Source: Solidesulfovibrio fructosivorans JJ] (GTDB lineage Bacteria; Desulfobacterota; Desulfovibrionia; Desulfovibrionales; Desulfovibrionaceae). Taken from it: DNA of 64,000 nucleotides. Position numbers and translations under genes: made by a program. The notes below the pieces were generated by a model. That model was given only the letters and a program-made list of their open reading frames with translations, was not told the origin of the DNA and did not search any database. This document shows, in pieces, positions 75 to 41,532 of this stretch (positions within the stretch are counted from its first letter, which is position 1; every line of letters starts with the position of its first letter). The stretch spans positions 1 to 64,000 of the forward strand of contig NZ_AECZ01000005.1 of assembly GCF_000179555.1 (NCBI RefSeq), read 5' to 3'.

Positions 75-2102
75 TTATTTGCGGAGCAACACCTCGGCAG
101 CGGCGGTGGCGTCGGCGGCCAGGACGATGTCGAGGCCTTCGAGCACGTCGGCGGGCAGGGTCTCGACCACGGGGGCGTTGGCCTGGGGCAGGACAACGGT
201 GGTGATGCCGGCGCGTTTGGCGGCCAGGCATTTTTCCCGGATGCCGGCCACGGGGAGCAGGCGTCCGGCCAGGGTCATCTCGCCGGTCGCGGCCGCGTCG
301 CAGCGGGCGGGGCGGCCGGTCAGCAGGGAGAGCAGGGCGCAGAAGATGGTGACCCCGGCCGAGGGGCCGTCCTTGGTGATGGCCGCGGCCGGGAAGTGGA
401 CGTGGATGTCGGTTTTTTCGAAAAAGTCCGGATCGACGCCGAGTTCGACGGCACGACTGCGGATGTTGCTGAGCGCCGCCTGGGCCGATTCGCGCAGCAC
501 GTCGCCGAGGGAGCCGGTGAGGAGAAGCTGCCCGGAGCCCGGCATGCGGGCGGTCTCGACGAACACGATTTCGCCGCCGTGCTCGCCGACGACCAGACCC
601 GTCACCACGCCCACGCGGTCGCCGGCTTCGGCCGCCTCGCGGGTGAAGCGGCGCGGCCCGAGGAGCTTGGGGATGTCCGGGGCGTCGATGGCGGTCGGGG
701 CCGTGCCCTTGTCCTCGAAGGTGAGCCGGGCCAAGCGGCGGCAGGCCGCGCCGACTTCGCGGGAGAGTCCGCGCAGGCCGGATTCGCGGGTGTAGTCGTC
801 GACGATGCGGCCAAGGGCCTGATCGGTGAAGGTGATGGAATCCGGGGACAGGCCGTTTTCGCGCAGGTGCCGGGGCAGGAGGAAATCCTTGGCGATGCCG
901 AGCTTTTCCCGGTCGGTGTAGCCGGGGAAGGCCAGGTTTTCCAGGCGGTCGAGCAGGGGGCCGGGCAGGCGCGAGACGTCGTTGGCCGTGGCGATGAACA
1001 TGATGCGCGAGAGGTCGAAGGGGATTTCCAGGTAGTTGTCGGAAAAGCGGGCGTTTTGTTCGGGGTCGAGGATTTCGAGCAGGGCCGAGGCGGCGTCGCC
1101 GCGAAAGTCCGCGCCGATCTTGTCGATCTCGTCGAGCATGAAGACCGGGTTGGACACGCCGATCCGGGCCAGTTCCTTGAGGATGCGCCCGGGCATGGCC
1201 CCGACGTAGGTGCGCCGGTGGCCGCGCAGTTCGGCCTCGTCGCGAAGTCCGGCCAGAGACAACCGCACGAATTCGCGCCCGAGCGCCTCGGCCACGGCCT
1301 GGCCCACGGACGTCTTGCCGACTCCGGGAGGGCCGGAAAAGCACAGCACCGGCCCGCGCCCCGGCGAGGCGGCCAGCTTGGCGTCGAGGACCTCGCGCAC
1401 GGTCTTTTTGAGCTCGTCGAGATTGACCGGCTTGCCGAGGTAGTGGGCGGCCCCGGCGCGAAGCGCCTCCACGGCCGTGCCCACGGTGGCGAACCCGGTG
1501 ACCATGACGACCGCGGCGTCCGGAGCGGTGCGCCGCAGCCGCCGCAAAAGCTCCATGCCGTCCAGGCGTTCCATTTTGAGATCCGTCACCACCACATCGG
1601 CCGCGAATCCGGCCGTCAGGACATCGAGCGCCTCCAGGCCGTCCCCGGCCGTGCGCACCTCGTAGCCTTCCTTCCCCAGAACATGGGCCATGTTCATGCG
1701 TGCGATCTCCTCGTCGTCCACCACGAGGAGCTTCGGCTTGGCCGCGCCGCGAAGCGCCCGGGCGGCCAGGAATTCCAGGATGCGCTCCTTGACCGCCGTG
1801 AGCCCGTGGTGCCGCGCGTCCAGCACTTCCCTGGCCCGGGTGAGGTCGAGGGTGTCGCGGGTGCAGTTGTTCCAGGGAAGTTTCAATAAAAATTCAAGGT
1901 AGTTGATGCCGACAGCGTATTCGGCCACGGACGGGTCGGTCTTTTCCAGGCGTTCCAATTCGCGACCGGCGGCATCGGCGGCCTGAGCCGGCAAATTGGC
2001 GTCTTCCACGGAGCGGCGGAGGGTTTCGAGCACGCCGGTATCGGCTTCCGCGGCGTTCGGGGCGGCGGGCTCGGCCTGGCGGGGCTTGTTGCGGAAAAAC
2101 AT
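75..2102 (-). CDS. Lon-type ATP-dependent protease with inserted response-regulator receiver domain
   Basis: A 675-residue cytoplasmic AAA+ serine protease of the Lon family. Residues 1-120 resemble only the end of the Lon N-terminal region and its linker (EYAVGINYLEFLLKLPW, GLTAVKERILEFLAAR); most of the usual substrate-binding N domain is absent. A complete receiver domain follows at about 122-240, with acidic pair D129/D130, phospho-acceptor D174, T202 and K224. The Lon ATPase then resumes with Walker A GPPGVGKT (257-264) and Walker B FMLDEID (321-327). The protease domain keeps the Ser-Lys dyad, S581 in DGPSAG and K624. The receiver therefore sits inside the Lon fold, between linker and ATPase. 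No partner kinase is adjacent. Inference: phosphorylation could gate ATPase or proteolysis. All key residues are present, so it is probably active. The start ATG at 2102 is preceded by AAGGAGAACGCC. Confidence 0.93.
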   Translation of the reverse strand: MFFRNKPRQAEPAAPNAAEADTGVLETLRRSVEDANLPAQAADAAGRELERLEKTDPSVAEYAVGINYLEFLLKLPWNNCTRDTLDLTRAREVLDARHHGLTAVKERILEFLAARALRGAAKPKLLVVDDEEIARMNMAHVLGKEGYEVRTAGDGLEALDVLTAGFAADVVVTDLKMERLDGMELLRRLRRTAPDAAVVMVTGFATVGTAVEALRAGAAHYLGKPVNLDELKKTVREVLDAKLAASPGRGPVLCFSGPPGVGKTSVGQAVAEALGREFVRLSLAGLRDEAELRGHRRTYVGAMPGRILKELARIGVSNPVFMLDEIDKIGADFRGDAASALLEILDPEQNARFSDNYLEIPFDLSRIMFIATANDVSRLPGPLLDRLENLAFPGYTDREKLGIAKDFLLPRHLRENGLSPDSITFTDQALGRIVDDYTRESGLRGLSREVGAACRRLARLTFEDKGTAPTAIDAPDIPKLLGPRRFTREAAEAGDRVGVVTGLVVGEHGGEIVFVETARMPGSGQLLLTGSLGDVLRESAQAALSNIRSRAVELGVDPDFFEKTDIHVHFPAAAITKDGPSAGVTIFCALLSLLTGRPARCDAAATGEMTLAGRLLPVAGIREKCLAAKRAGITTVVLPQANAPVVETLPADVLEGLDIVLAADATAAAEVLLRK

Positions 2103-2190
2103 GGCGTTCTCCTTGCGGACGGATGGGGCAATCTAGCGTCAAACCGGGCGGCCGGGCAAATATCCCGGTTTGGCCGCAAGCGGGTTGCCT

Positions 2191-2313
2191 GTTGCGCATT
2201 GTTACGACTGGGAGGTGGTGTTGCAGATTGCAACGCGAAACGAAGAACGGCCGGAGAGGGCGCGGTTATGGGGTTTTTTGTTCGCAAGGCCTTTTTGCGT
2301 TGCAGATGGCAAC
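2191..2313. promoter_or_regulatory. Three GTTGC-N-GCAAC dyads upstream of the stress/sulfite operon
   Basis: Three related 15-bp imperfect palindromes occur in the divergent intergenic region: GTTGCGCATTGTTAC (2191-2205), GTTGCAGATTGCAAC (2220-2234) and GTTGCAGATGGCAAC (2299-2313). The second is a perfect dyad with arms GTTGCA/TGCAAC, and the third matches it at all but one base. The same motif is repeated at 31095-31206 upstream of the hydrogenase operon. I read these as binding sites for one regulator, which I cannot name. They lie about 90-200 bp upstream of the sigma-54-like promoter at 2393. Confidence 0.55.
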
Positions 2314-2335: not shown

Positions 2336-2392
2336 TTTTAAGAAATCAAGTTTTATCAAATAAAAACAAATTATTAGAAGAATGTTTCAAAA

Positions 2393-2408
2393 TGGCACGC
2401 ATCTTGTT
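2393..2408 (+). promoter_or_regulatory. Sigma-54-type promoter of the USP/TauE operon
   Basis: TGGCACGCATCTTGTT matches the -24/-12 consensus TGGCACG-N4-TTGC except for T instead of C at the last core position (GG-N10-GT). It lies 46 bp before the ATG at 2454, which argues against a start further upstream at 2382. An activator would be required; the dyads at 2191-2335 are candidate binding sites. Confidence 0.6.
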
Positions 2409-2453
2409 CTTAAAAGCGCAATCCGGGCGCGAAGCCCACAACGAGAGGACAGG

Positions 2454-3260
2454 ATGCACGACGCCGCGACCATGACGCAGGAAACCCAGATGCCGGCCGG
2501 ACGGCCCCACCAGGTGCTGGTGGTGGTCCGGGGCGGCCAGGCGGCCGCCGCCTTGACCGAATACGCCCTGGGCGTGGCCGAGCGGCTGGGGCTCGGGATC
2601 CTGGCGGCCTACGTCGATACCCTGCCCCGGTTCGGCGACAGGCTTTTACGGCGGGAGCGCTTCGCCGCCGGCGCCGCCCACGACGCGGCCGTGTTCGCGG
2701 AAAAGGCGCAACAATCAAACATTGGCTTCGAGCATGTCACGGCTTCGGGCAAGGCGTCCGAGGCGGTGCTGGCCCTGGTGCACGGTGGCCGGCGCATTGA
2801 TTTCGTGGTGCTCGATCCGGCGATTCGACTTGAGGATGTGGCCCGGCGTTCGCCCGTGCCGGTCTTCGGCCTGGATGTGGCCGAAGCGGACGGCAAGGGG
2901 CGCGATCGCGGCCGCAAGATGCTGCAACACCGAAATCCTGGGAGGTTGTCCATGTCCGAGAGAACGCGCAAGCGCAACGGGGTTCGTTCCGTCATCTTCG
3001 GCATCGCTTCGGTGGCTCTGTATGCCGCGGTTTTCACCCACAGCGATTGGGTCGCCAACCTGTCGGCCAAGGGCGGCCTGTACGCCGTGGTGCCGGTCAT
3101 CACCGTCTTTTTGTTCTCCTATATTCACGGCAGCTTCACCGGCGCCTTCTGGTCGGCGCTCGGCATCGAGGCCTCCAAGGGCGCGGCGGCCAAGAAGCAG
3201 CCCGCCGTTTCGACCGAGAAGCGCAAGGACGGCCGCGCTGCCGCCCAGATCAACGCGTAG
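2454..3260 (+). CDS. Universal stress protein-like domain in frame with a small membrane protein
   Basis: From ATG 2454 the frame codes for 268 residues. The first part (to about residue 150) looks like a divergent UspA fold: HQVLVVVRGGQAAAALTEYA at its first strand and RIDFVVLD further in. The ATP-binding G-X2-G-X9-G signature of USP is not evident. The second part, from the internal ATG at 2952, has two hydrophobic segments (SVIFGIASVALYAAVF and YAVVPVITVFLFSYI) and a basic, alanine-rich tail. A GGGAGG site 7 bases before the 2952 ATG suggests the two halves can be made separately. First gene of an operon with the sulfite exporter and a tandem USP. Could be one fusion protein or two overlapping products. 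Confidence 0.7.
   Translation: MHDAATMTQETQMPAGRPHQVLVVVRGGQAAAALTEYALGVAERLGLGILAAYVDTLPRFGDRLLRRERFAAGAAHDAAVFAEKAQQSNIGFEHVTASGKASEAVLALVHGGRRIDFVVLDPAIRLEDVARRSPVPVFGLDVAEADGKGRDRGRKMLQHRNPGRLSMSERTRKRNGVRSVIFGIASVALYAAVFTHSDWVANLSAKGGLYAVVPVITVFLFSYIHGSFTGAFWSALGIEASKGAAAKKQPAVSTEKRKDGRAAAQINA
2952..3260 (+). CDS. Small two-helix membrane protein (internal start within the preceding frame)
   Basis: Starting at ATG 2952, behind a good ribosome binding site (GGGAGG), this 102-residue product begins MSERTRKRNG, then has a hydrophobic helix, the loop FTHSDWVANLSAKGG, a second helix and the conserved-looking stretch IHGSFTGAFWSALGIEASKG. It lies immediately upstream of the TauE-type exporter and may be an accessory subunit; that is inference from position. 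No stop codon separates it from the USP-like sequence upstream, so it may instead be the C-terminal half of a fusion. Confidence 0.5.
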   Translation: MSERTRKRNGVRSVIFGIASVALYAAVFTHSDWVANLSAKGGLYAVVPVITVFLFSYIHGSFTGAFWSALGIEASKGAAAKKQPAVSTEKRKDGRAAAQINA

Positions 3261-3347: not shown

Positions 3348-4391
3348 ATGCACGGCGCTGGCGAAATGATTACCTTCATCGACCTCAATGTCTATTCGGT
3401 CATATTTCTTTTCCTGGTCGGCTTCATCGGCGGGCTGGTCAGCGGCTTTATCGGCTCCGGCGGCGCGTTCGTGCTCACCCCGGGCATGATGAGCCTCGGC
3501 GTGCCCGGCCCGGTGGCCGTGGCCAGCAACATGTGCCACAAGTTCCCCAAGGCCCTGGTCGGGTCCATCAAGCGTTACCGCTACGGGCAAGTGGACATCA
3601 AACTGGGCGTCATCATGGGGCTTTTCGCCGAGATCGGCGTCCAGCTCGGCATCAAGGTCCAGACCACCATCCTGGAGCGCTGGGGGCAGGCCGGCTCCAA
3701 CCTCTACGTCAGCCTGGCCTTCGTCGTGGTGCTCTTGACCGTCGGCAGCTTCGTCATGCGCGACGCCATGCGCCTGGCCCGCAACGGCGGCGCGGGGGGA
3801 TCGTCCAACCGGCTGGCCCAGCGCCTGCAGGCCATCGAACTGTGGCCCATGATCACCTTCAAGCGGGCCGGCGTGCGCATCTCCATGTGGTTTCTGATCC
3901 CCGTCGCCCTGGCCACCGGCATGCTGGCCGCCACTATCGCCGTGGGCGGGTTCATCGGCGTGCCGGGCCTCATGTACGTCATCGGTGTCACGAGCATCGT
4001 GGCCTCGGCTTCCGAACTGGTCATCGCCTTCGTCATGGGCCTTGGCGGCACGCTGATCTGGGCCTACTACGGCATGGTCGATATCCGCCTTACGCTGATC
4101 ATCCTCGGCGGCTCGCTCTTCGGCGTGCAGCTCGGCGCCATCGGCACCACTTACGTCAAGGAGTACATGATCAAGATGGTCATGGCGATCATCATGCTGA
4201 TCGTGGCCGTGAGCCGCTTTTTGGCCATGCCCAAGTACCTCAACAAGCTTTCCCTGACCAATTTCGCCGACACGACCGTGTCGCTGCTCTCCCAGACGAG
4301 CTTCGGCATCATGGTGGTGGCTCTGCTGATCGGCGCGGGCATCATCCTGGCCTCCATGTTCAAGGCCAGAAGGCTCGAAAGCGGGGCCTAG
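3348..4391 (+). CDS. TauE/SafE-family sulfite/sulfonate exporter
   Basis: A 347-residue inner-membrane protein of the TauE/SafE (DUF81) family, which moves sulfite, organosulfonates or related anions. It shows the duplicated layout: an N-terminal half with the glycine-rich helix FVGFIGGLVSGFIGSGGAF-like start (residues about 20-45), a cytoplasmic linker near 130-165, and a second half with LATGMLAATIAVGGFIGVPG. About eight hydrophobic segments are visible. The start at 3348 follows GGGAGGAGAGG. It sits between USP genes, a plausible arrangement for a sulfate reducer that must export toxic sulfite, though the substrate is not proven by sequence. The next gene starts 4 bases after its stop, so they are co-transcribed. 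Confidence 0.85.
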   Translation: MHGAGEMITFIDLNVYSVIFLFLVGFIGGLVSGFIGSGGAFVLTPGMMSLGVPGPVAVASNMCHKFPKALVGSIKRYRYGQVDIKLGVIMGLFAEIGVQLGIKVQTTILERWGQAGSNLYVSLAFVVVLLTVGSFVMRDAMRLARNGGAGGSSNRLAQRLQAIELWPMITFKRAGVRISMWFLIPVALATGMLAATIAVGGFIGVPGLMYVIGVTSIVASASELVIAFVMGLGGTLIWAYYGMVDIRLTLIILGGSLFGVQLGAIGTTYVKEYMIKMVMAIIMLIVAVSRFLAMPKYLNKLSLTNFADTTVSLLSQTSFGIMVVALLIGAGIILASMFKARRLESGA

Positions 4392-4395
4392 CCCG

Positions 4396-5292
4396 ATGCA
4401 CGTGCACCGACCCAAGACCATTGTCGTCGGGCTCGACGGCTCCCCGGCCTCCCGGGGAGCCTTCGAGCAGGCCATGATCCTGGCCGCCTCCTTACGGGGG
4501 CGGCTTGTCGCCGTTGCGGTGGCTCCCGCTTTGGGCGGGCTCGAACGCATCGGCCGGGAGCGGGAGCGCCGGGAACTGTTGCGTCCCTTCGAGGAGGCCC
4601 TCGAAGCGGCGGGGGAGGCCGCGTCCAAGGCCGGGTTGCCGCTTAAAAAGGTGCTCGAGGCCGGCGAGGCCTTCGAACGGCTGGTGGACGCGGCCGAGGG
4701 CGAGGAGGCCAGCCTGGTCGTTTTGGGGGACGCCCGCCGGGCCTATATGGAACGGATATTGCTTGGGAGAAACGTGGCCAAGGTCATCGGCTACAGTCCG
4801 TGCGACGTGCTGCTTGTTCCAGAACGAACCAAGCTGGACTTCACCAAGGTGGTCACGGCGGTCGACGGCTCGAAGCAGAGCATGGCCGCCGCCGGGCGCG
4901 CCATCGGGCTGTGCGCCGCCTACGCCGGCTCCCTGGATGTGGTGGCGGTCCTCGATGTGCCCGTGGACAGGCATCTGATCTACGGCATCTTCGAGGACAT
5001 CAAGCGCCGGGCGCTCGTCGCCACGGGAGCGGTGGCCAAGGCGGCCAAGGAGCGCGATGTGCCCTGCGAGGTGACCATCTTGGAGGGCTCCCCGGACCGC
5101 GCCATCGCGGCCCATGCCGCCAAGGTCGGGGCCGGCTGCCTGGTGCTCGGATCGTACGGCAAGAGCGGATTGCGGCGGTTGCTGCTCGGCAGCGTGGCCG
5201 AGCGGGTGCTGGCCCTTTCCTCCTGCCCGGTCCTGGTGGTCAAAGCCGCGCCGGGAGATGCGGACGCCGTGCCTCTGGACGAAGAAACGTAA
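4396..5292 (+). CDS. Tandem universal stress protein (two UspA domains)
   Basis: A 298-residue cytoplasmic protein with two UspA domains. Domain 1 (about 5-145) starts KTIVVGLDGSPASRGAF and ends near the ILLGRNVAKVIGYSPCDVLLV segment. Domain 2 (about 150-285) starts KVVTAVDGSKQSMAAA and contains VLGSYGKSGLRRLLLGSVAE, the glycine-rich ATP-binding signature of nucleotide-binding USPs (G-X2-G-X9-G-S). Domain 1 keeps a similar but weaker version. Function is presumed stress survival or energy sensing. It is the third or fourth gene of the sulfite-exporter operon and is tightly linked to tauE (4-base gap). Confidence 0.9.
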   Translation: MHVHRPKTIVVGLDGSPASRGAFEQAMILAASLRGRLVAVAVAPALGGLERIGRERERRELLRPFEEALEAAGEAASKAGLPLKKVLEAGEAFERLVDAAEGEEASLVVLGDARRAYMERILLGRNVAKVIGYSPCDVLLVPERTKLDFTKVVTAVDGSKQSMAAAGRAIGLCAAYAGSLDVVAVLDVPVDRHLIYGIFEDIKRRALVATGAVAKAAKERDVPCEVTILEGSPDRAIAAHAAKVGAGCLVLGSYGKSGLRRLLLGSVAERVLALSSCPVLVVKAAPGDADAVPLDEET

Positions 5293-5798: not shown

Positions 5799-8585
5799 TT
5801 ATTTCGCGACGAACCTGATTTCCATTGTGGCCCGAAGGGTATTGATCCTCTCCGTTATTGCCCGTGCCTCCGCCGCATCCTGGTTTTTGGCCGCATGCTC
5901 CAACCCGCGATACAGTTCGGAAAGCGCCTGCAATTCATAGTTGCCGGCCGCGCCCTTCAATCCGTGGCCCAGACGGCGCAGCTCCTCGAAGTCCCCGTGC
6001 CGTATCGATCTGGCGATGGAGTCCATTTCCTGGTCGATCTCATCCAGGAATGCCGGCATCAGCTCCCGCAGGTCCGCATCGACTTCAATGCGTTCCGCGA
6101 TGACGGCGGCGGGCGGCGGGGGCGCGCACCGCGCGTTCTTCTGGCGTGTCCCAGGCCCTGACCGGGCGAGGTTGGGCGGGACGGTCCGTTCGATGGCCTG
6201 CACCAAGTCGCTTTTCCTGACCGGCTTGGACAAAAAGGCGTCGCAACCGGCCTGTAGGCTTTCTTCCTTGTGCTGGACAAAGGCATGGGCCGTCAGCGCG
6301 ATGATAGGCGTGCGGGGCAGCCCTCGGCCGCGCTCGAAGGCGCGGATCTCCCGGGTGGCGGCGAGTCCGTCCATCACCGGCATTTCCCTGTCCATGAGCA
6401 CGATATCGAATTGCCCGCCCGCCCGGGCATAGGTGTCGACGGCGACTTTCCCGTTGACCGCCTCGTCGATGTCTATCCCGGTTGTTTTGAGATAATGCTG
6501 AATGATCATGCGGTTGGCGGCGATGTCCTCGACAAGAAGCAGGCGCATGCCGTCCAGGTTTCCGGTCGGATTCCGCGCGCCCGCCAAATCCGCATGCCGC
6601 TCGGTCCGGCCCAGGATTTTTGAAAAGAGCGACCGCAAATCCGATCGTCTGATTGGCTTCGGCAACAAGCCGTCCAGATGCAGCTTTTTGGATTTGAGCC
6701 GGTTTTCGAAGGTATCGCTCGAGGTGTTGAGGATGATGTGCGGCGGCGCCTGGGGATGCAGCCGCCTGAGTTTCTCGGCCACCTCCATGCCGTCCATGCC
6801 GGGCATAAGCATATCCAGAAAGATGACGTCATAGGGCGTTCCTGATCCCTCGGCCTCATATGCGGCGGCCAGGGCCGCGGGTCCGTCTTCCGCCCAGGCC
6901 ACGGTAGCTCCCCACCGGTTCAGGTGGTCATGGAGCAACAACCGGTTCGTTTCGTTGTGATCCACGACCAATACCTTCACACCGGACAGCATGTTGGCGA
7001 CATGGGTGTCGGACGGGTCGTATGCCGGGGGCTCGTTCGTATGCTTGAGCCTGACGGTGAGGAGGAAGGTGGTGCCCGCACCCTCGTTGGATTCTATCCG
7101 GATTCCTCCGTCCATAAGTTCGATCAGCTTTTTGGATATGGCCAATCCAAGGCCGGTGCCGCCGAATTTACGCGTCGTCGACGTGTCGGCCTGGGAAAAG
7201 CTCTCGAACACCGACTCCTGCTTGTCCTTTGGAATGCCTATTCCGGTATCGCTGACGGTCACCAGGATCGTTTCCTTGTCCGCGGGCAGCGGGCCGGGAA
7301 GAATATGGAGTGTGACTTCGCCGTGCTCGGTGAATTTGATGGCATTGCTTAGCAAATTGATGAGAATTTGTTGCAGCCGGGTCGGATCGCCGAGGACATG
7401 TCGGTGTACTTCAGGAGCCACCCAGCAGGTCAATTTCAGTCCTTTTTCCTGGGCCTTGAGGCCAAGAATGCGGCCGATCCCCTCCACAAGGTCGATGAGG
7501 TCGAACGGAACGCACTCAAGATCCACTTGCCCGGCTTCGATCTTGGAAAAATCGAGGATGTCGTTGATAATGGCAAGAAGCATTTCACCGGAAGAATGCA
7601 ATGTTTGAACATAGTTTTTCTGGTCGAAATCCAACGATGTCTCTTCGAGAAGTTCGCTCATACCGAGTATGGAATTCATTGGTGTCCGTATTTCGTGGCT
7701 CATACGGGCAAGAAATTCTGATTTTGCTCTCGTTGCGGCTTCCGCGGCAAGCTTTGCCCTGTGCAGCTCCTGTTCGACCATCTTGCGTTCCGTAACATTG
7801 CGCATGCACTCGACGGCGCCGACGATATTTCCGGAACTGTCTTTGAGTGGCGCGGCCACACCCCAAAGGTAGGCCCCTTTCCCGCCGAATGCATTTGGTG
7901 TATAAATTTCACCAAAAAGCATTTCTCCCTTTCGTTGCACAAACGTATATTGCTCTATAGGGACCCGGTCGTCCAAGACCCAGTCGATAAGAATTGGCCT
8001 TCTTTCATTGTAGAACGGTAGCGCATATTCGTAATTCCCTTTTCCAACGATAGCTTCCTTTTTCACCTCCGTAACGTCTTCAATGGCTTTATTCCAAACG
8101 ACGATGATGCCGTCCTTGTCCACGATCATGGTCGGTTCTGGTAAAAATTCAATGATGTCGGTCAATTGTCGAATGGAGTCCTGCAAATACCTTTCCCGCT
8201 GCCGTGTTGCGGTCACATCGCGAAAAATCCAAAGGCGGCCGTCTTGCCCGGCTCCCGGAAAAAGAGCGGCGGTGCGGATCTCGATGACCCTGCCGTCCTT
8301 TAACGACAACACAACGGGGGCGGCCTTTTCGCCGTCACCCGTGTTGGGTGCGAAGTCCTCGGGATAGACCTTTCCCGATGCGCAACCGTCAAGCTGGGCG
8401 GTGATGCTATCGAAAAATGCAGCCGTGTCACTGCCAAGGAGGGCGGGATCGTCCAGATTCCACATGGCGCGAAACCTGTCGTTGCAGACCATTATCCGCC
8501 CGAACTTGTCCGCGGCAAGAATGCTGTCTTCCAATGCCTCTACAAGGGCTTTCAAGAACTCGGCTGAACAATGAATATCAGGCAT
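5799..8585 (-). CDS. Hybrid sensor histidine kinase (PAS-PAS-HisKA-HATPase-REC-REC-Hpt)
   Basis: About 928 residues and no membrane segment, so a cytoplasmic sensor. Two PAS domains (about 8-130 and 138-270) precede the dimerisation domain with MSHEIRTP (phospho-His H297) and the ATPase domain (DTGIGIP, FGGTGLGLAISKKL). Two receivers follow: the first (about 536-658) has D591 but reads VVDHNE, so one of the usual two acidic residues is His; the second (about 681-800) is canonical with VLMDREMP (D732). The C-terminal Hpt domain has GHGLKGAAGN with H874. This is a complete phosphorelay in one chain. ATG 8585 is preferred because AAGG lies 7 bases upstream; ATG 8615 would add 10 residues. A diguanylate-cyclase regulator lies immediately upstream on the same strand and is a possible output. 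Confidence 0.92.
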   Translation of the reverse strand: MPDIHCSAEFLKALVEALEDSILAADKFGRIMVCNDRFRAMWNLDDPALLGSDTAAFFDSITAQLDGCASGKVYPEDFAPNTGDGEKAAPVVLSLKDGRVIEIRTAALFPGAGQDGRLWIFRDVTATRQRERYLQDSIRQLTDIIEFLPEPTMIVDKDGIIVVWNKAIEDVTEVKKEAIVGKGNYEYALPFYNERRPILIDWVLDDRVPIEQYTFVQRKGEMLFGEIYTPNAFGGKGAYLWGVAAPLKDSSGNIVGAVECMRNVTERKMVEQELHRAKLAAEAATRAKSEFLARMSHEIRTPMNSILGMSELLEETSLDFDQKNYVQTLHSSGEMLLAIINDILDFSKIEAGQVDLECVPFDLIDLVEGIGRILGLKAQEKGLKLTCWVAPEVHRHVLGDPTRLQQILINLLSNAIKFTEHGEVTLHILPGPLPADKETILVTVSDTGIGIPKDKQESVFESFSQADTSTTRKFGGTGLGLAISKKLIELMDGGIRIESNEGAGTTFLLTVRLKHTNEPPAYDPSDTHVANMLSGVKVLVVDHNETNRLLLHDHLNRWGATVAWAEDGPAALAAAYEAEGSGTPYDVIFLDMLMPGMDGMEVAEKLRRLHPQAPPHIILNTSSDTFENRLKSKKLHLDGLLPKPIRRSDLRSLFSKILGRTERHADLAGARNPTGNLDGMRLLLVEDIAANRMIIQHYLKTTGIDIDEAVNGKVAVDTYARAGGQFDIVLMDREMPVMDGLAATREIRAFERGRGLPRTPIIALTAHAFVQHKEESLQAGCDAFLSKPVRKSDLVQAIERTVPPNLARSGPGTRQKNARCAPPPPAAVIAERIEVDADLRELMPAFLDEIDQEMDSIARSIRHGDFEELRRLGHGLKGAAGNYELQALSELYRGLEHAAKNQDAAEARAITERINTLRATMEIRFVAK

Positions 8586-8651
8586 CACTCCGCCTTTGTC
8601 TGTTGCAGCGGGCATGGTCTCGATCAGGAGCGGGACGTCTTCCCAAAAAAG

Positions 8652-9554
8652 TTACCCAGCGGTTTTGACGGTATTTCGTCCCTCTTCCTTGGCTCGGTAC
8701 AAGGCCTGATCGGCCGCGTCGATGATCTCGCCCGGTCCGTGATTCCTTTCGGGGTAGGATGTCGCGACTCCCAGGCTGACCGTCACATGGGGAGCCACGC
8801 TGGAATGCTCGTGGGGGATTGCCAAAGAGGAAATACGCAAGCGTATCGTGTCGGACGCGTCCAATGCGCCTTGGGTATCGGTGCCGGGGAGTATGACCGC
8901 GAACTCTTCCCCGCCGTAACGGGCGACGAAATCGGCGGCGCGCCGCACGCTCTCCTTCAAAGACCAACCCACCCGGCGCAGGCAGTCGTCGCCTTGTTGA
9001 TGTCCGTAGTTGTCATTGTATTTCTTGAAGAAATCTATATCCAGGAGGATCAGGGACAAAGGCGCTCCATTGCGTTGCGCCCGACGCCATTCCTTGTCCA
9101 GGACCGCATCGAATCTGCGGCGGTTCGGAATGGCGGTCAAACTGTCGATGAAAGCCTGTTCCTCCAAAAGGTCGCGGGCACGTTTTAATTCGATGTGGTT
9201 TCGAATGCGGGCTTTGACGATGGGCATACGGAATGGTTTGCGGATATAATCCACGGCGCCGAGGTCCAGTCCCTTGGCCTCGTCCTCGTCTTCGTCCAGG
9301 CTGGTAATGAAGATGACTGGAATCTTGCGACTGCGTTCATCATCCTTGAGCTGGCGACAGGTTTCGAAACCATCCATTCCCGGCATGAGTATATCCAATA
9401 AAATCAGATCGGGTTGCTGTGCATGCACGACCTCCAAGGCCTCCATGCCGCTTGTTGCGGTCAGGCATTCGTATTCACCCGACAACTTCTTCGCAAGCAG
9501 ACGCGTGTTGGCCCTCATGTCATCGACGATCAGGATTTTCTTAGGAGGCAGCAC
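8652..9554 (-). CDS. Response regulator with GGDEF (diguanylate cyclase) output
   Basis: About 300 residues: a receiver domain (about 5-122; KKILIVDDM at the start, phospho-acceptor D54 in LILLDILMPG), a helical linker, then a GGDEF domain with active-site GGEEF (about 214-218). The product inhibition site RAAD lies five residues before it (RxxD), so feedback control by c-di-GMP is expected. The enzyme makes c-di-GMP from two GTP. I chose the GTG at 9554 because AAAGGAG precedes it by 7 bases; the longer reading to 9599 would need a TTG start without a site. It is 66 bases upstream of the hybrid kinase gene on the same strand, so the kinase may phosphorylate it (inference). Confidence 0.9.
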   Translation of the reverse strand: MLPPKKILIVDDMRANTRLLAKKLSGEYECLTATSGMEALEVVHAQQPDLILLDILMPGMDGFETCRQLKDDERSRKIPVIFITSLDEDEDEAKGLDLGAVDYIRKPFRMPIVKARIRNHIELKRARDLLEEQAFIDSLTAIPNRRRFDAVLDKEWRRAQRNGAPLSLILLDIDFFKKYNDNYGHQQGDDCLRRVGWSLKESVRRAADFVARYGGEEFAVILPGTDTQGALDASDTIRLRISSLAIPHEHSSVAPHVTVSLGVATSYPERNHGPGEIIDAADQALYRAKEEGRNTVKTAG

Positions 9555-9962
9555 AGGGATACTCCTTTGCGATGGTCCGGAATATACGAGGTGCGGCAAA
9601 CATGCCTTTGCTCCTTCTTCCTTCGGATTCCCGTGTCGTTATTTTGAAAATATCATGGAGTCCAGTATCGCTTGCGCGTGAGTCGTCTGATTGGCGGCCA
9701 TAGTGTTCATATGTCCGAAAGCCGAGGAGCGTCAAAAGTCGGAGGCCTCCGTTTTTCCCTTCCCCCGTATTCCTCCTCTTGCCCGGGCGTTGCGCGGCGG
9801 ACGTCCAAACGATAAGAACGCGCATTACATGCGCGCCCGGTGGACCGGGCGGGAACGGGGGGACATGGGTGGCGTGCGCCATGAATACCCGGTGTCAGGA
9901 CGCGTCCCGTCGACGCGGACCGAAGCCGGGCCTTGACGTTGCGGCAGGGGAAGGTTGCGGTC
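9555..9962. other. Divergent intergenic region
   Basis: About 400 bases between the GGDEF regulator (-) and the glycosyltransferase (+). I see no convincing gene. It contains a short CGGAGGCCTCCG palindrome followed by TTTTT near 9745, a weak terminator candidate at best, and a good Shine-Dalgarno stretch (AGGGGAAGG) just before 9963. Promoters must lie here but I cannot place them with confidence. Confidence 0.5.
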
Positions 9963-38404: not shown

Positions 38405-40493
38405 GCTGTCGCTCCTCGACATAGACGACCTCGGCAACCACGAGACATCCCTGTCCCGGTTGCGACGCGATGCGCAGCGTGCCGCCGAAAAGCCCCACCC
38501 GCTCCCGCATGCCGGCCAGCCCCATGCGCCGGTCCCGGCCGGCCCGGTCGAGGCCTTCGGCCACATTGAAGCCCTTGCCGTCGTCTTTGACGCGCAAAAT
38601 GAGCCTGGGGTAGGATTCCACCAGCCGCACCGACACGTGCCGCGCCCCGGCATGGCGACGGACATTGGCCAGGGCCTCCTGGGCGACCCGGTAGAGGTTG
38701 ATGGCCACGTCCTGGGGGACGCTGACGCCTTCCAGGCCGGAGCTGACGAAATCGACCCCCATTGCCGCCTGTCTGGAAAAATCGTCGCACAGCCGTTCCA
38801 GCGCCTGGACGAGCCCGAGGTATTCCAGGTCCGGCGGGCGCAGGCCGTAGGAGAGTTCCCGCACCGACCGGATGGCTCGCGACAACAGGGCCGTGAATCC
38901 GGTCAACCGGTCCCGCACGGCGGGAGAGGGGAGGGCCGTGCCGTCGAGCAGGGTCTGGCAGGCGATCTTGGCGGCGGAGAGGTCCTGGGCCACATTGTCG
39001 TGGAGGTCCCGGGCGATGCGGGCCCGCTCGATTTCCTGGGCCTTCAAGAGCGCGCCCGTCAGTTTCCGGATATTCTCCTCGGCCTGTTTGAGTTCGGTCA
39101 CGTCGGTGTTGGTGCCGACGAAGCGGGTGGCCCGGCCCGACGCGTCGCGAACGGCCCGGCCGCGCACCAGAATCCAGTGCACGGTTCCGTCGCGCGCCGA
39201 CATGCGCTGTTCGCCGACGTATTCGTCGACATCCCCCTTGGTCCAGGCCGCCAGCTCCTCGCGCACCCGTTCCCGGTCCTCGGGATGGACATGGGCCAGC
39301 CAGGCGTCGAGTTCCGGCCGCATGCCCTCCGCGTTGTAGTCGAGCAGGGCCAGGAAGTGCGGGTCGATATAGAACGCGCCGCTTTCCTTCCACAATTCCC
39401 ACACGCCGACCTTGGCCGCCCGGGTGGCCATCGCATAGCGGCCATGGGCCTGGTCAAGGGCGGCCAGCATGGCGTTTATGGCCTTGGACAGATCGGCGAT
39501 CTCGTCGTTTCCGGCAACGAAGGTCCGGCCCTCCCCGGCGGTATCCTCGCCGAGGTGCTTGATCTGGCCGCGCAGGCTCGACACGCGGGACAGGATGCGC
39601 CGCTCCACCAGCAACATCATGGCCAGTCCGAAGGCCAGCCCGATGGTCAGCAGGAACATGACGTTGTTGCGCTGGACGATGCGTTCCTGGGCGAAGATGC
39701 GGCGCGGCATGGCGACGGAGAGCAGGATGCCCGGCCGGCCGGCCAAATCGCGCAACAGGGCGAAGCCCTGAATGCTTTTTTCGCCGTCGGGAACGACGGC
39801 GTGCCGCCCTGTGCGGCCGATGGAGGCGGCGATGTCGCCGAACCGGGGCGAGAGTCCCGGTTGCTGCAGGTCGACCACGCCAAGGCGCAGCATGATCAGC
39901 TCCGACAATCCGGCGATGTTGTCGGCGTCGAGCCGCCGCCCCATGACCAGCACGCCATGGGGCGGACCCTCGCGCGTGCTCGTGAGGATGGGGCAGGCGG
40001 CCAAAAGCCAGACGGTGCCGCCTTCTATGAGCATGCCCGAAACCACGTTGCCGTTTTTCCCCGGCCGGGCGACGAGCCGCGTGGCGGCCACCTTGTCCGA
40101 CAAGGCCCGGGAAACGGGCAGGAGCTTCTGGTCCGCCGCCTGGACCGTTCGTCCGAGCACAAGGCTCCCCGCGGCGTCGTAGATCAGGATCAGGTCCGCG
40201 TGGATGGTGCTCAGGCTCTGGAAGTTGATGTTCCCGCGCAGGTAGTCCGCATCGCGGTCCCGGGCGAACCGGTACGTGTCGTCCCACATGGCCCAGTCGG
40301 CCACGGTCGCCTCGAGGGCTTCGGTTTCGCCGTGCAGCACCCGGCCGGCCCGGGTGATTTCCTCCTCGACTTCTTCCCGCTCCAGGGTGCTGAAGCCGGC
40401 CCGGAGGTTGCTGCTGGAAATGGCGTAGAGCACGGCGAAAAGCCCGGAGAAGGTGAGGCAGATGATGAGGGCGGCGGTTCGGCGGAGGCTCAT
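38376..40493 (-). CDS. Membrane sensor histidine kinase (CHASE4-HAMP-PAS-HisKA_3)
   Basis: A 705-residue NarX/DegS-class kinase. TM1 is at about 5-25 and TM2 at about 275-295; the periplasmic part carries the CHASE4 signature ADWAMWDDTYRFARDRDADY. HAMP (about 296-350) and a PAS domain (about 352-470) follow. The HisKA_3 box reads RARIARDLHDNVAQDLS with phospho-His H498, and the ATPase part has GLAGMRERVGLFGG. It signals to the overlapping NarL-type regulator. The ligand of CHASE4 domains is unknown. Confidence 0.93.
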   Translation of the reverse strand: MSLRRTAALIICLTFSGLFAVLYAISSSNLRAGFSTLEREEVEEEITRAGRVLHGETEALEATVADWAMWDDTYRFARDRDADYLRGNINFQSLSTIHADLILIYDAAGSLVLGRTVQAADQKLLPVSRALSDKVAATRLVARPGKNGNVVSGMLIEGGTVWLLAACPILTSTREGPPHGVLVMGRRLDADNIAGLSELIMLRLGVVDLQQPGLSPRFGDIAASIGRTGRHAVVPDGEKSIQGFALLRDLAGRPGILLSVAMPRRIFAQERIVQRNNVMFLLTIGLAFGLAMMLLVERRILSRVSSLRGQIKHLGEDTAGEGRTFVAGNDEIADLSKAINAMLAALDQAHGRYAMATRAAKVGVWELWKESGAFYIDPHFLALLDYNAEGMRPELDAWLAHVHPEDRERVREELAAWTKGDVDEYVGEQRMSARDGTVHWILVRGRAVRDASGRATRFVGTNTDVTELKQAEENIRKLTGALLKAQEIERARIARDLHDNVAQDLSAAKIACQTLLDGTALPSPAVRDRLTGFTALLSRAIRSVRELSYGLRPPDLEYLGLVQALERLCDDFSRQAAMGVDFVSSGLEGVSVPQDVAINLYRVAQEALANVRRHAGARHVSVRLVESYPRLILRVKDDGKGFNVAEGLDRAGRDRRMGLAGMRERVGLFGGTLRIASQPGQGCLVVAEVVYVEERQHGNEADTDR

Positions 40494-40704
40494 GTCTTCT
40501 TATGCCCATGGCCGGTCGGGCTGTAAACCGCGCGCGCCTGCCGAAATTCGTCGCCGGTGGTCTCAAGGCGTTGTTCGCGCGGGGCTCTCGTGGAGTCGGC
40601 CGGACCGAAGTCGCCGCGTGGAGGGAATCCCGCAATGGACCTAATTTTTGCCTCCCGCCCGTCCGAAAAGAAAAGAGAAGGATAAGACTGCGGGAGGGGC
40701 GGAA

Positions 40705-41532
40705 ATGTCGCTTACTGATACCGATAGAAGCCTTATCTATGATATGTCGTTGCAATTATTGCAACAAGATATATTGACGCGTACGCTCTTTCAAGGCGGA
40801 ATCGTAGGGCAGATGCTGCGCAATATGATGGTGGAGCAATCGTCATCGTATCAGCGCACCAATCCTTATGATGAAGCCATTACCGGCACCTTGCGATCCG
40901 ATGCGGCGGCGGTCAAGCAAAATTCACGCAATGTATCGGAAGCTTCAAGTATGATGGGCGTGGCCAAGGAAGGTGTGGCGGGGATCCAGACATCCTTGGC
41001 GGATATGAAGCAGATCCTTGATGATATCAATAGCGGCTTGTTAAGTGGGTCGGATCCCATTGTTCAACAGAATTATTTGAATTTAAAAAATCAAATTCTA
41101 GGATATGTTTCAAATACTGAATACAATGGTATTTATATGCTTGATAGTTCAAAATGGGGGACGGAGCAAATTGACTCTGGCGGCAACGTGTATATCCAAG
41201 CCTTCAAAAATGGAGGGTTCGATGTTAATTTTTATGATGCAAGCAGTCTTGATTTCGCTTCGCTCGACGAAACAGCTCTTGGAAACCAATCTGGGCGAGA
41301 TGCCCAAAACGCCTTGCTTGATAGCCTGTCGTCCAGTATCGATTCCATGCATGATATGTACGACAAGAGAGAAACAAGTTATGCAACCCAAGCGACACAG
41401 CTGGACGCACAGTCAAGTTTGTTGACGCAAGCCGCTGAAACAAGACGGCAGAAGCCCGCGCAGTCGCTGGAATCTCTTCTTTTGGATTGGGTTGCCCAGA
41501 CAACGGGAAGTCTGTTGAATACCTCAAGTTAG
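40705..41532 (+). CDS. Flagellin-like protein, AT-rich relative to neighbours
   Basis: A 275-residue protein. The segment KQNSRNVSEASSMMGVAKEG, followed by VAGIQTSLADMKQILDDINS and later SNTEYNGIYMLDSS, resembles the conserved helical N-terminal domain of flagellins. The C-terminal 70 residues (SSIDSMHDMYDKRETSYATQ onward) could be the partner helix, but the usual flagellin C-terminal ending is missing and the N terminus (MSLTDTDRSLIYDMSLQLLQ) is atypical. It is clearly more AT-rich than the surrounding DNA, suggesting acquisition. It could be a hook-associated or orphan flagellin. ATG 40705 follows GGGAGGGG. No flagellar genes are near. Confidence 0.65.
   Translation: MSLTDTDRSLIYDMSLQLLQQDILTRTLFQGGIVGQMLRNMMVEQSSSYQRTNPYDEAITGTLRSDAAAVKQNSRNVSEASSMMGVAKEGVAGIQTSLADMKQILDDINSGLLSGSDPIVQQNYLNLKNQILGYVSNTEYNGIYMLDSSKWGTEQIDSGGNVYIQAFKNGGFDVNFYDASSLDFASLDETALGNQSGRDAQNALLDSLSSSIDSMHDMYDKRETSYATQATQLDAQSSLLTQAAETRRQKPAQSLESLLLDWVAQTTGSLLNTSS

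Follow-up and report, generated by a model that had tools for sequence, protein, structure and literature searches.

The window, a stretch of 64,000 nucleotides from Solidesulfovibrio fructosivorans JJ, begins at base 1 of contig C5 and carries close to this end the gene of a Lon protease with an inserted receiver domain (hereafter named REC-Lon). The gene is a single intact open reading frame on the reverse strand (75..2102, stop codon included), has an ATG start and encodes 675 amino acids. Since it ends 75 bp from the contig end, its downstream neighbour lies outside the visible sequence. Between the gene and this contig end (1-75) lies a hairpin-like repeat, GGGGGAAACTTTTCT...AGAAAAGTTTCCCCC, which recurs behind REC-Lon in genome G004 (L035, about 9390-9425). 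This repeat is likely a terminator, and perhaps the same repeat broke the assembly. On the forward strand, a divergent operon starts with a gene at 2382..3260 (start uncertain), whose product gave no Pfam match and partly resembles a small protein that relatives encode at this position. It is followed by a TSUP/TauE permease gene (3348..4391) and by the gene of a tandem universal stress protein with two Usp stretches (4396..5292). Further along, at 5799-9599 on the reverse strand, a hybrid kinase that has two receivers and ends in an Hpt domain adjoins a receiver protein with a GGEEF motif (diguanylate-cyclase type); as neither is present at this place in G004, they are probably a separate, recently placed signalling unit.

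Pfam detected in the REC-Lon protein a Response_reg domain (residues 126-235, E 1.7e-27) followed by AAA (253-390), Lon_lid (415-465) and Lon_C (472-670), and the protein scored 660.8 bits against the NCBIfam 'lon' model TIGR00763 (cut-off 608.05). Read from its start, and always on the reverse strand, the gene encodes the short motif MFFRNK (2085..2102), a neck three-helix region plus box-II helix defined by alignment to 3m6a and 6u5z (residues 20-118, 1749..2045), the receiver as delimited by Pfam, homologue conservation and an AlphaFold2 model (residues 122-241, 1380..1739) with the predicted phospho-acceptor D174 (1581-1583), the AAA+ core that follows the insertion (Pfam and conservation, 933..1346), the AAA+ lid (Pfam, 708..860) and the protease domain (Pfam and conservation, 93..689) with S581 (360-362) and K624 (231-233). 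From Lon motifs, we take K263 to be the Walker A lysine, D324/E325 Walker B, N374 the sensor and R386 the Arg finger. The Ser-Lys dyad, Walker A and B, the Arg finger and Lon_C thus occur in one chain, as in a LonA (S16) protease, and the acidic pair, phospho-Asp, Thr/Ser, Lys and (beta-alpha)5 fold are those of a two-component receiver (PF00072). A previous examination of the letters and open reading frames alone (hereafter the sequence-only reading) had reported a complete receiver with D129, D130, D174, T202 and K224 inside a Lon that retained its Walker motifs and dyad; these residues were found at the positions it gave, as were Walker A, S581 and K624. Its remark that the N domain is nearly gone also held, with no match to the Lon N domain (PF02190, as we take the accession to be) listed for the protein of the window or for any of the 38 family members scanned. 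REC-Lon is hence better described as an N-domain-less Lon than as a full LonA. The source genome (4.67 Mb in 75 contigs) keeps two more Lons, both ordinary, so that REC-Lon is an additional Lon and no replacement. A weak Lon_C match (38.9 bits) within an 853-residue frame on contig C8 (G000:C8:32464-32778) is possibly a further Lon-like protein.

The N-terminal motif conforms to a pattern shared by the family (hydrophobic-F/W-x-K/R), although the start of the protein is otherwise disordered; residues 1-18 were modelled with pLDDT below 50. Other REC-Lons begin with, for example, MIFFRK, MLFFQK or MFFRKK. The motif may serve in docking, at the membrane or at the pore. The pattern, which was defined after the sequences had been inspected and on protein starts picked by script, occurred within the first 12 residues in 63 of 65 homologues (frameshifted L131 and L099, whose start is missing, being left aside) versus 14 of 1340 random 12-mers.

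The alignment of REC-Lon with the B. subtilis Lon (3m6a) breaks at query residue 118 and resumes at 249, which correspond to residues 103 and 107 of that chain, and the alignment with the E. coli Lon (6u5z) breaks at 116 and resumes at 249 (chain residues 342 and 348). Because both alignments break and restart cleanly, about 130 residues of REC-Lon replace 3-5 residues of these enzymes. The receiver sits after the helix that carries H98-x-G-L and before the strand leading to Walker A. Ordinary Lons (24 sequences, of which 23 are distinct since L033 and L151 are the same gene) pass from the same helix to a GPILC-type strand in about 10 residues. This helix is presumably box II of the AAA+ nucleotide pocket, and as the insertion follows it, the receiver splits the ATPase module instead of only preceding it. 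The sequence-only reading, which had put the receiver between linker and ATPase, was right about the anatomy, to which the junction after the box-II helix is a refinement. An AlphaFold2 model obtained with 38 sequences (mean pLDDT 85.4, pTM 0.75) contained all five beta-alpha units of the receiver, and the misfolded domain named beforehand as grounds for abandoning the idea was not seen. In this model alpha5 of the receiver (22 residues, 228-249) runs into the AAA+ strand 252-256. In Foldseek alignments that spanned the insertion, the model matched whole Lons, with a TMt of 0.93 (rmsd 3.0) to 7yuh_A, 0.90 to 3m6a_A and 0.88 to 6u5z.

Homologues were collected from related genomes and from a wider scan. 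A full-length REC-Lon match was present in 28 of the 59 genomes of the relatives set. The wider scan returned at least 78 loci; of these 78, 39 were taken as REC-Lon, 37 were not REC-Lon by the criteria used, and two were excluded from the count, namely L091, which a contig end truncates, and L097. The latter, from a Nitrospirae MAG (L097:5956-7101, forward strand), has a neck, a receiver and an AAA-like part with an altered Walker A, lacks the protease domain in frame, and is a degenerate REC-Lon relative or a pseudogene. Among the matches listed, the titles were mostly of Desulfobacterota or Deltaproteobacteria, with four of Nitrospirae/Nitrospirota. In an even sample of the phylum, 15 of 118 genomes matched REC-Lon, the source genome counted; one of them matched partially because 94 N separate its two pieces. 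A plasmid search returned 2172 matching records, all below 60% identity.

The 67 homologues assembled include near-duplicates from two genome sources, so that they are not independent members. D129, D130, D174 and K224 were kept in all 67 and T202 in 66, with S once. The regular loss of the receiver aspartate, which the sequence-only reading had set as a second reason to drop its proposal, was thus observed in 0/67, and a degenerate receiver is ruled out by this conservation. The Walker A Lys and the Arg finger were likewise invariant (67/67), the Walker B Glu was kept in 66/67 and the Ser-Lys dyad in all 66 homologues that extend that far; L032 has D at the position of the Walker B Glu and S at that of the sensor Asn. 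H98 and D129 lay 31 residues apart in 66/67, the sole exception being frameshifted L131, which is represented by its piece after the break, and K224 and the Walker A K263 lay 39 residues apart in 65/67 (38 in L026 and L093), whereas Walker B and S581 were separated by nine different lengths, truncated L096 set aside. Near-fixed junctions next to a variable Walker B-Ser distance point to a receiver grafted rigidly. In a tree of the Lon part, built without L085 and L090 (no match to the Walker A pattern) and L096 (short), 64 REC-Lons formed one clade with support 1.0 versus the 24 ordinary Lon sequences, which were drawn from order-level genomes only. Several independent receiver-Lon fusions are not supported by this single clade, as judged against ordinary Lons of that origin. 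REC-Lon is a real, unusual and functional-looking enzyme, and it belongs to a conserved, maintained and little-studied family; it is no one-off. A phospho-responsive Lon is supported indirectly, as predicted from sequence and model, by the retained aspartate, the well-modelled receiver and the near-fixed junctions.

The absence of a cognate kinase next door, remarked on in the sequence-only reading, agrees with what was found in the source genome, where the orthologous pair is not adjacent to REC-Lon and lies on contig C29. It comprises a kinase with HAMP, HisKA and HATPase domains (39956-41398) and a sigma54 regulator with REC, sigma54 and Fis-type domains (38610-39956), which are 80% and 83% identical to the pair adjoining REC-Lon in G003. 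In 41 of 67 loci, orthologues of both were located in the neighbourhood of REC-Lon, with orientations that varied; a TSUP gene was nearby in 42 of 67. Among loci with full flanks (5 kb or more upstream of REC-Lon and 4 kb or more downstream), 30/38 had kinase and regulator nearby and 8/38 lacked the full pair there. In G001 and G010, REC-Lon and the kinase/regulator pair both lie near contig ends, so that the two may be adjacent there. A contig edge as the explanation for the absent kinase is ruled out by G004, a single contig with a REC-Lon 97% identical to ours: the 9.6 kb downstream of its REC-Lon contained no kinase match, and its kinase/regulator pair lies 1.96 Mb away.

The kinase also tends to accompany REC-Lon across genomes. 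In the set of relatives, the kinase was matched at E <= 1e-72 in 28/28 genomes with REC-Lon versus 1/31 others; the lone match without REC-Lon was in G002, a 69% complete genome, and its score (248.5 bits) is below the paralogue level of REC-Lon genomes (up to 266.9 bits). At the same cut, the phylum sample (all 14 other REC-Lon genomes and 19 of the 103 genomes without a REC-Lon match were checked) showed the kinase in 13/14 versus 4/19, with a Fisher p of 6e-5 that ignores kinship. G096, with REC-Lon and no kinase match, is a true exception at that cut, and the four matches in genomes without REC-Lon, which are 37-40% identical, may be paralogues. When the receivers of the source genome were compared (150 of 172 candidates scored; 87 matches besides REC-Lon itself at E <= 1e-8), the nearest to that of REC-Lon was the receiver of the C29 sigma54 regulator, with 103.8 bits versus 78.7 for the next. 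The comparison of alpha1 among 29 receivers gave this regulator a narrow lead (7/13 identical, runner-up 6/13), and a receiver tree joined the receivers of REC-Lon and of the partner regulators weakly: the support was 0.855, 10 outsiders were included, and 13 of 67 REC-Lon receivers fell outside the main clade. Judging from these sequence comparisons, the kinase of REC-Lon is likely that of the C29 pair and not one of the two hybrid kinases at 5.8 and 60.2 kb that the sequence-only reading had put forward.

The region between REC-Lon and the divergent TSUP/Usp operon contains two palindromes of the form GTTGC-N5-GCAAC, GTTGCAGATTGCAAC (2220..2234) and GTTGCAGATGGCAAC (2299..2313), neither assigned to a strand, as first and second candidate upstream activating sites of the partner sigma54 regulator. 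A promoter scan also gave a weak candidate sigma54 promoter of REC-Lon on the reverse strand, AGGCAACCCGCTTGCG (2175..2190, GG-N10-GC), which is tentative, since similar scores were obtained on either strand at other loci. In the 400 bp ahead of REC-Lon, 42 of 65 loci carried the core TTGC-N5-GCAA, at 73 sites (L085 and L099, without 400 bp upstream, are not counted); the other 23 had no match to it, and the full palindrome was found in 34/65. Chance palindromes are ruled out by the specificity for spacer 5 (spacers 0-4 and 6-11 gave 0-5 loci), by in-gene windows (0/325) and by mononucleotide shuffles (0.31 loci on average, largest 3). The exact pattern is not rare genome-wide, with 8 occurrences in the source genome versus 3 for the backward control, and 1, 7 and 14 in three genomes without REC-Lon; the evidence therefore lies in position and not in rarity. 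No palindrome was found in the stretches checked ahead of the kinase/regulator pair (C29 and G004). The distribution upstream of REC-Lon suggests that the palindromes may be the sites of the partner regulator and that REC-Lon and the divergent operon may form one regulon. A variant of the palindrome, GTTGCAAAGCGCAAC, is shared by two genomes (G000:C39:33200-33214 and G004:C1:3203256-3203270); in each it is separated by about 2.3 kb from a match to an ordinary Lon, possibly as a link between the regulon and ordinary Lon, or by chance.

A protein of this kind is already published. Excerpts of PMC3333781 describe DVU3303 of Desulfovibrio vulgaris Hildenborough as a Lon-containing response regulator and propose its activation by phosphorylation. 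As architecture and activation idea are in print, novelty is below that implied by the sequence-only reading. The kinase DVU3304 and the sigma54 regulator DVU3305 are given as its partners in the sections consulted of PMC3333781, PMC10102598 and PMC4641369, and the targets listed for DVU3305 in the last of these are DVU3302-3298 and DVU3303-3305. In the fitness data excerpted from PMC10102598, disruption of DVU3303-DVU3305 gave positive fitness in 6.25 mM chlorate, and Lon, kinase and regulator mutants showed pairwise cofitness above 0.9 in all combinations. According to the same excerpts, the target DVU3299 is important under chlorate and its mutants lose fitness; the signs conflict, as the three-component mutants gain, and simple activation of DVU3299 does not fit. 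Because the relevant parts of PMC3333781 and PMC4641369 handle DVU3303-DVU3305 as a single operon, insertions in the Lon gene could have polar effects on the kinase and regulator genes; the word 'polar' is absent from PMC10102598. No biochemical study of DVU3303 was found among open-access papers.

With moderate confidence, we regard REC-Lon as the protease branch of a conserved stress system with three components, licensed by a kinase that it shares with the sigma54 activator. The HAMP-HisKA kinase of contig C29 would phosphorylate two similar receivers, that of the sigma54 activator and that of Lon. Phosphorylation of D174 would shift the alpha4-beta5-alpha5 face of the receiver, and since alpha5 (228-249) leads into the first AAA+ strand, beside Walker A, the signal could travel through it to the ATPase ring. 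Phosphorylated REC-Lon would then most likely be licensed for ATP-driven unfolding and degradation of its substrate, and the sigma54 activator would turn on REC-Lon and the divergent TSUP/Usp operon through the GTTGC-N5-GCAAC sites. In this account we infer that phosphate is transferred, that phosphorylation turns the switch on, that coupling takes this route and that the palindromes are sites of the regulator.

By analogy with known adaptors, the receiver might instead be an adaptor within the chain that stands in for the lost Lon N domain, so that phosphorylation would govern substrate docking and not the ATPase rate. No match to the Lon N domain is listed among the members scanned, and the conserved N-terminal motif could also bind a partner; two near-fixed junctions and an alpha5 that enters an ATPase strand, however, exceed what a tethered adaptor would need. 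Because of these junctions we lean towards a phosphate that acts on the ATPase, and consider control of docking unlikely. A further possibility is that the receiver serves mainly as a phosphate sink, competing with the sigma54 regulator for the shared kinase while the protease is constitutive. The closeness of the REC-Lon receiver to that of the partner regulator, among those scored, would fit; with a sink, the phenotype would nevertheless be expected to oppose that of regulator loss, whereas the mutants are co-fit (with the caveat of polarity), and conservation of the dyad in 66/66 would be left unexplained. This makes a sink improbable. We are equally doubtful of a feedback on the system itself, in which the protease would degrade its sigma54 regulator or a repressor acting on that regulator. 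Such a loop would fit the linkage of the genes and their apparently common regulation, and degradation of a repressor is conceivable and compatible with the three-component explanation, but degrading the activator predicts a sign opposite to that of activator loss and the reported signs agree, again with the polarity caveat. Destruction of the activator by Lon and a mere phosphate sink are thus both disfavoured by the common sign, if this is not due to polarity. Finally, phosphorylation of the receiver by the Hpt-ended hybrid kinases at 5.8 and 60.2 kb can hardly be credited, as their listed receivers score 37.8-41.9 bits against that of REC-Lon versus 103.8 for the C29 regulator, and the 5.8 kb protein, despite its kinase, two receivers and Hpt domain, clustered with no predicted gene in 14 related regions (blastp E 1e-8, 60% length) and is absent at this place in G004.

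The shared kinase licensing REC-Lon together with the sigma54 activator may be put in a stronger form, which we offer tentatively and with less than even confidence: one kinase would drive two AAA+ rings, one for promoter opening and one for protein destruction, through sister receivers; that of Lon would be wedged rigidly into the AAA+ module, with the adenine-pocket helix on one side and the Walker A strand on the other, and its aspartyl phosphate would directly gate ATP-driven proteolysis, adaptor-free, in Desulfobacterota and Nitrospirota. If the switch is real, bacteria wire regulated proteolysis directly to two-component signalling without an adaptor, and Lon activity is directly testable with acetyl phosphate and point mutants. 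What is new here is the family-wide conservation of the phospho-site, the near-fixed junctions inside the ATPase, the single clade, the co-occurrence of the kinase, the shared palindromes, the conserved N-terminal motif and, for the source genome, a specific kinase candidate in place of the two hybrid kinases.

REC-Lon resembles the canonical LonA enzymes of E. coli (6u5z) and B. subtilis (3m6a) in its collinear neck, AAA+ module, lid and Ser-Lys protease, and differs from them in having no match to the Lon N domain and in the receiver of about 130 residues ahead of the Walker A strand. NtrC-type sigma54 response regulators also carry a receiver on an AAA+ ring, and the REC-Lon receiver scores well against that type; in these regulators, however, the receiver precedes the complete AAA+ domain and controls transcription, whereas in REC-Lon it comes behind the box-II helix and presumably controls proteolysis. 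RssB and CpdR are receiver adaptors of ClpXP, in which receiver phosphorylation controls an AAA+ protease; they are separate proteins acting on another protease, whereas in REC-Lon the receiver is part of the enzyme. The Lon of Xanthomonas citri is likewise tied to phosphorylation; according to the excerpted text of PMC5784255 it is regulated via Ser654, whose phosphorylation inactivates it, and a serine is thus used there in contrast to the predicted receiver aspartate of REC-Lon. The closest counterpart is DVU3303, likened to REC-Lon by description, synteny and partners, the position of the receiver included, and not by sequence comparison. Both combine response regulator and Lon in one protein and have a kinase and a sigma54 regulator as partners, which in the source genome are present on contig C29, apart from REC-Lon, unlike in the D. 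vulgaris system. A neighbouring operon with Usp-type and anion transporter genes is also common to both: the Usp/TSUP operon lies beside REC-Lon, with the palindromes between them as candidate regulator sites, and the permease encoded at 3348..4391 is likely the counterpart of the anion transporter DVU3299, as judged by type and place and not by sequence comparison.
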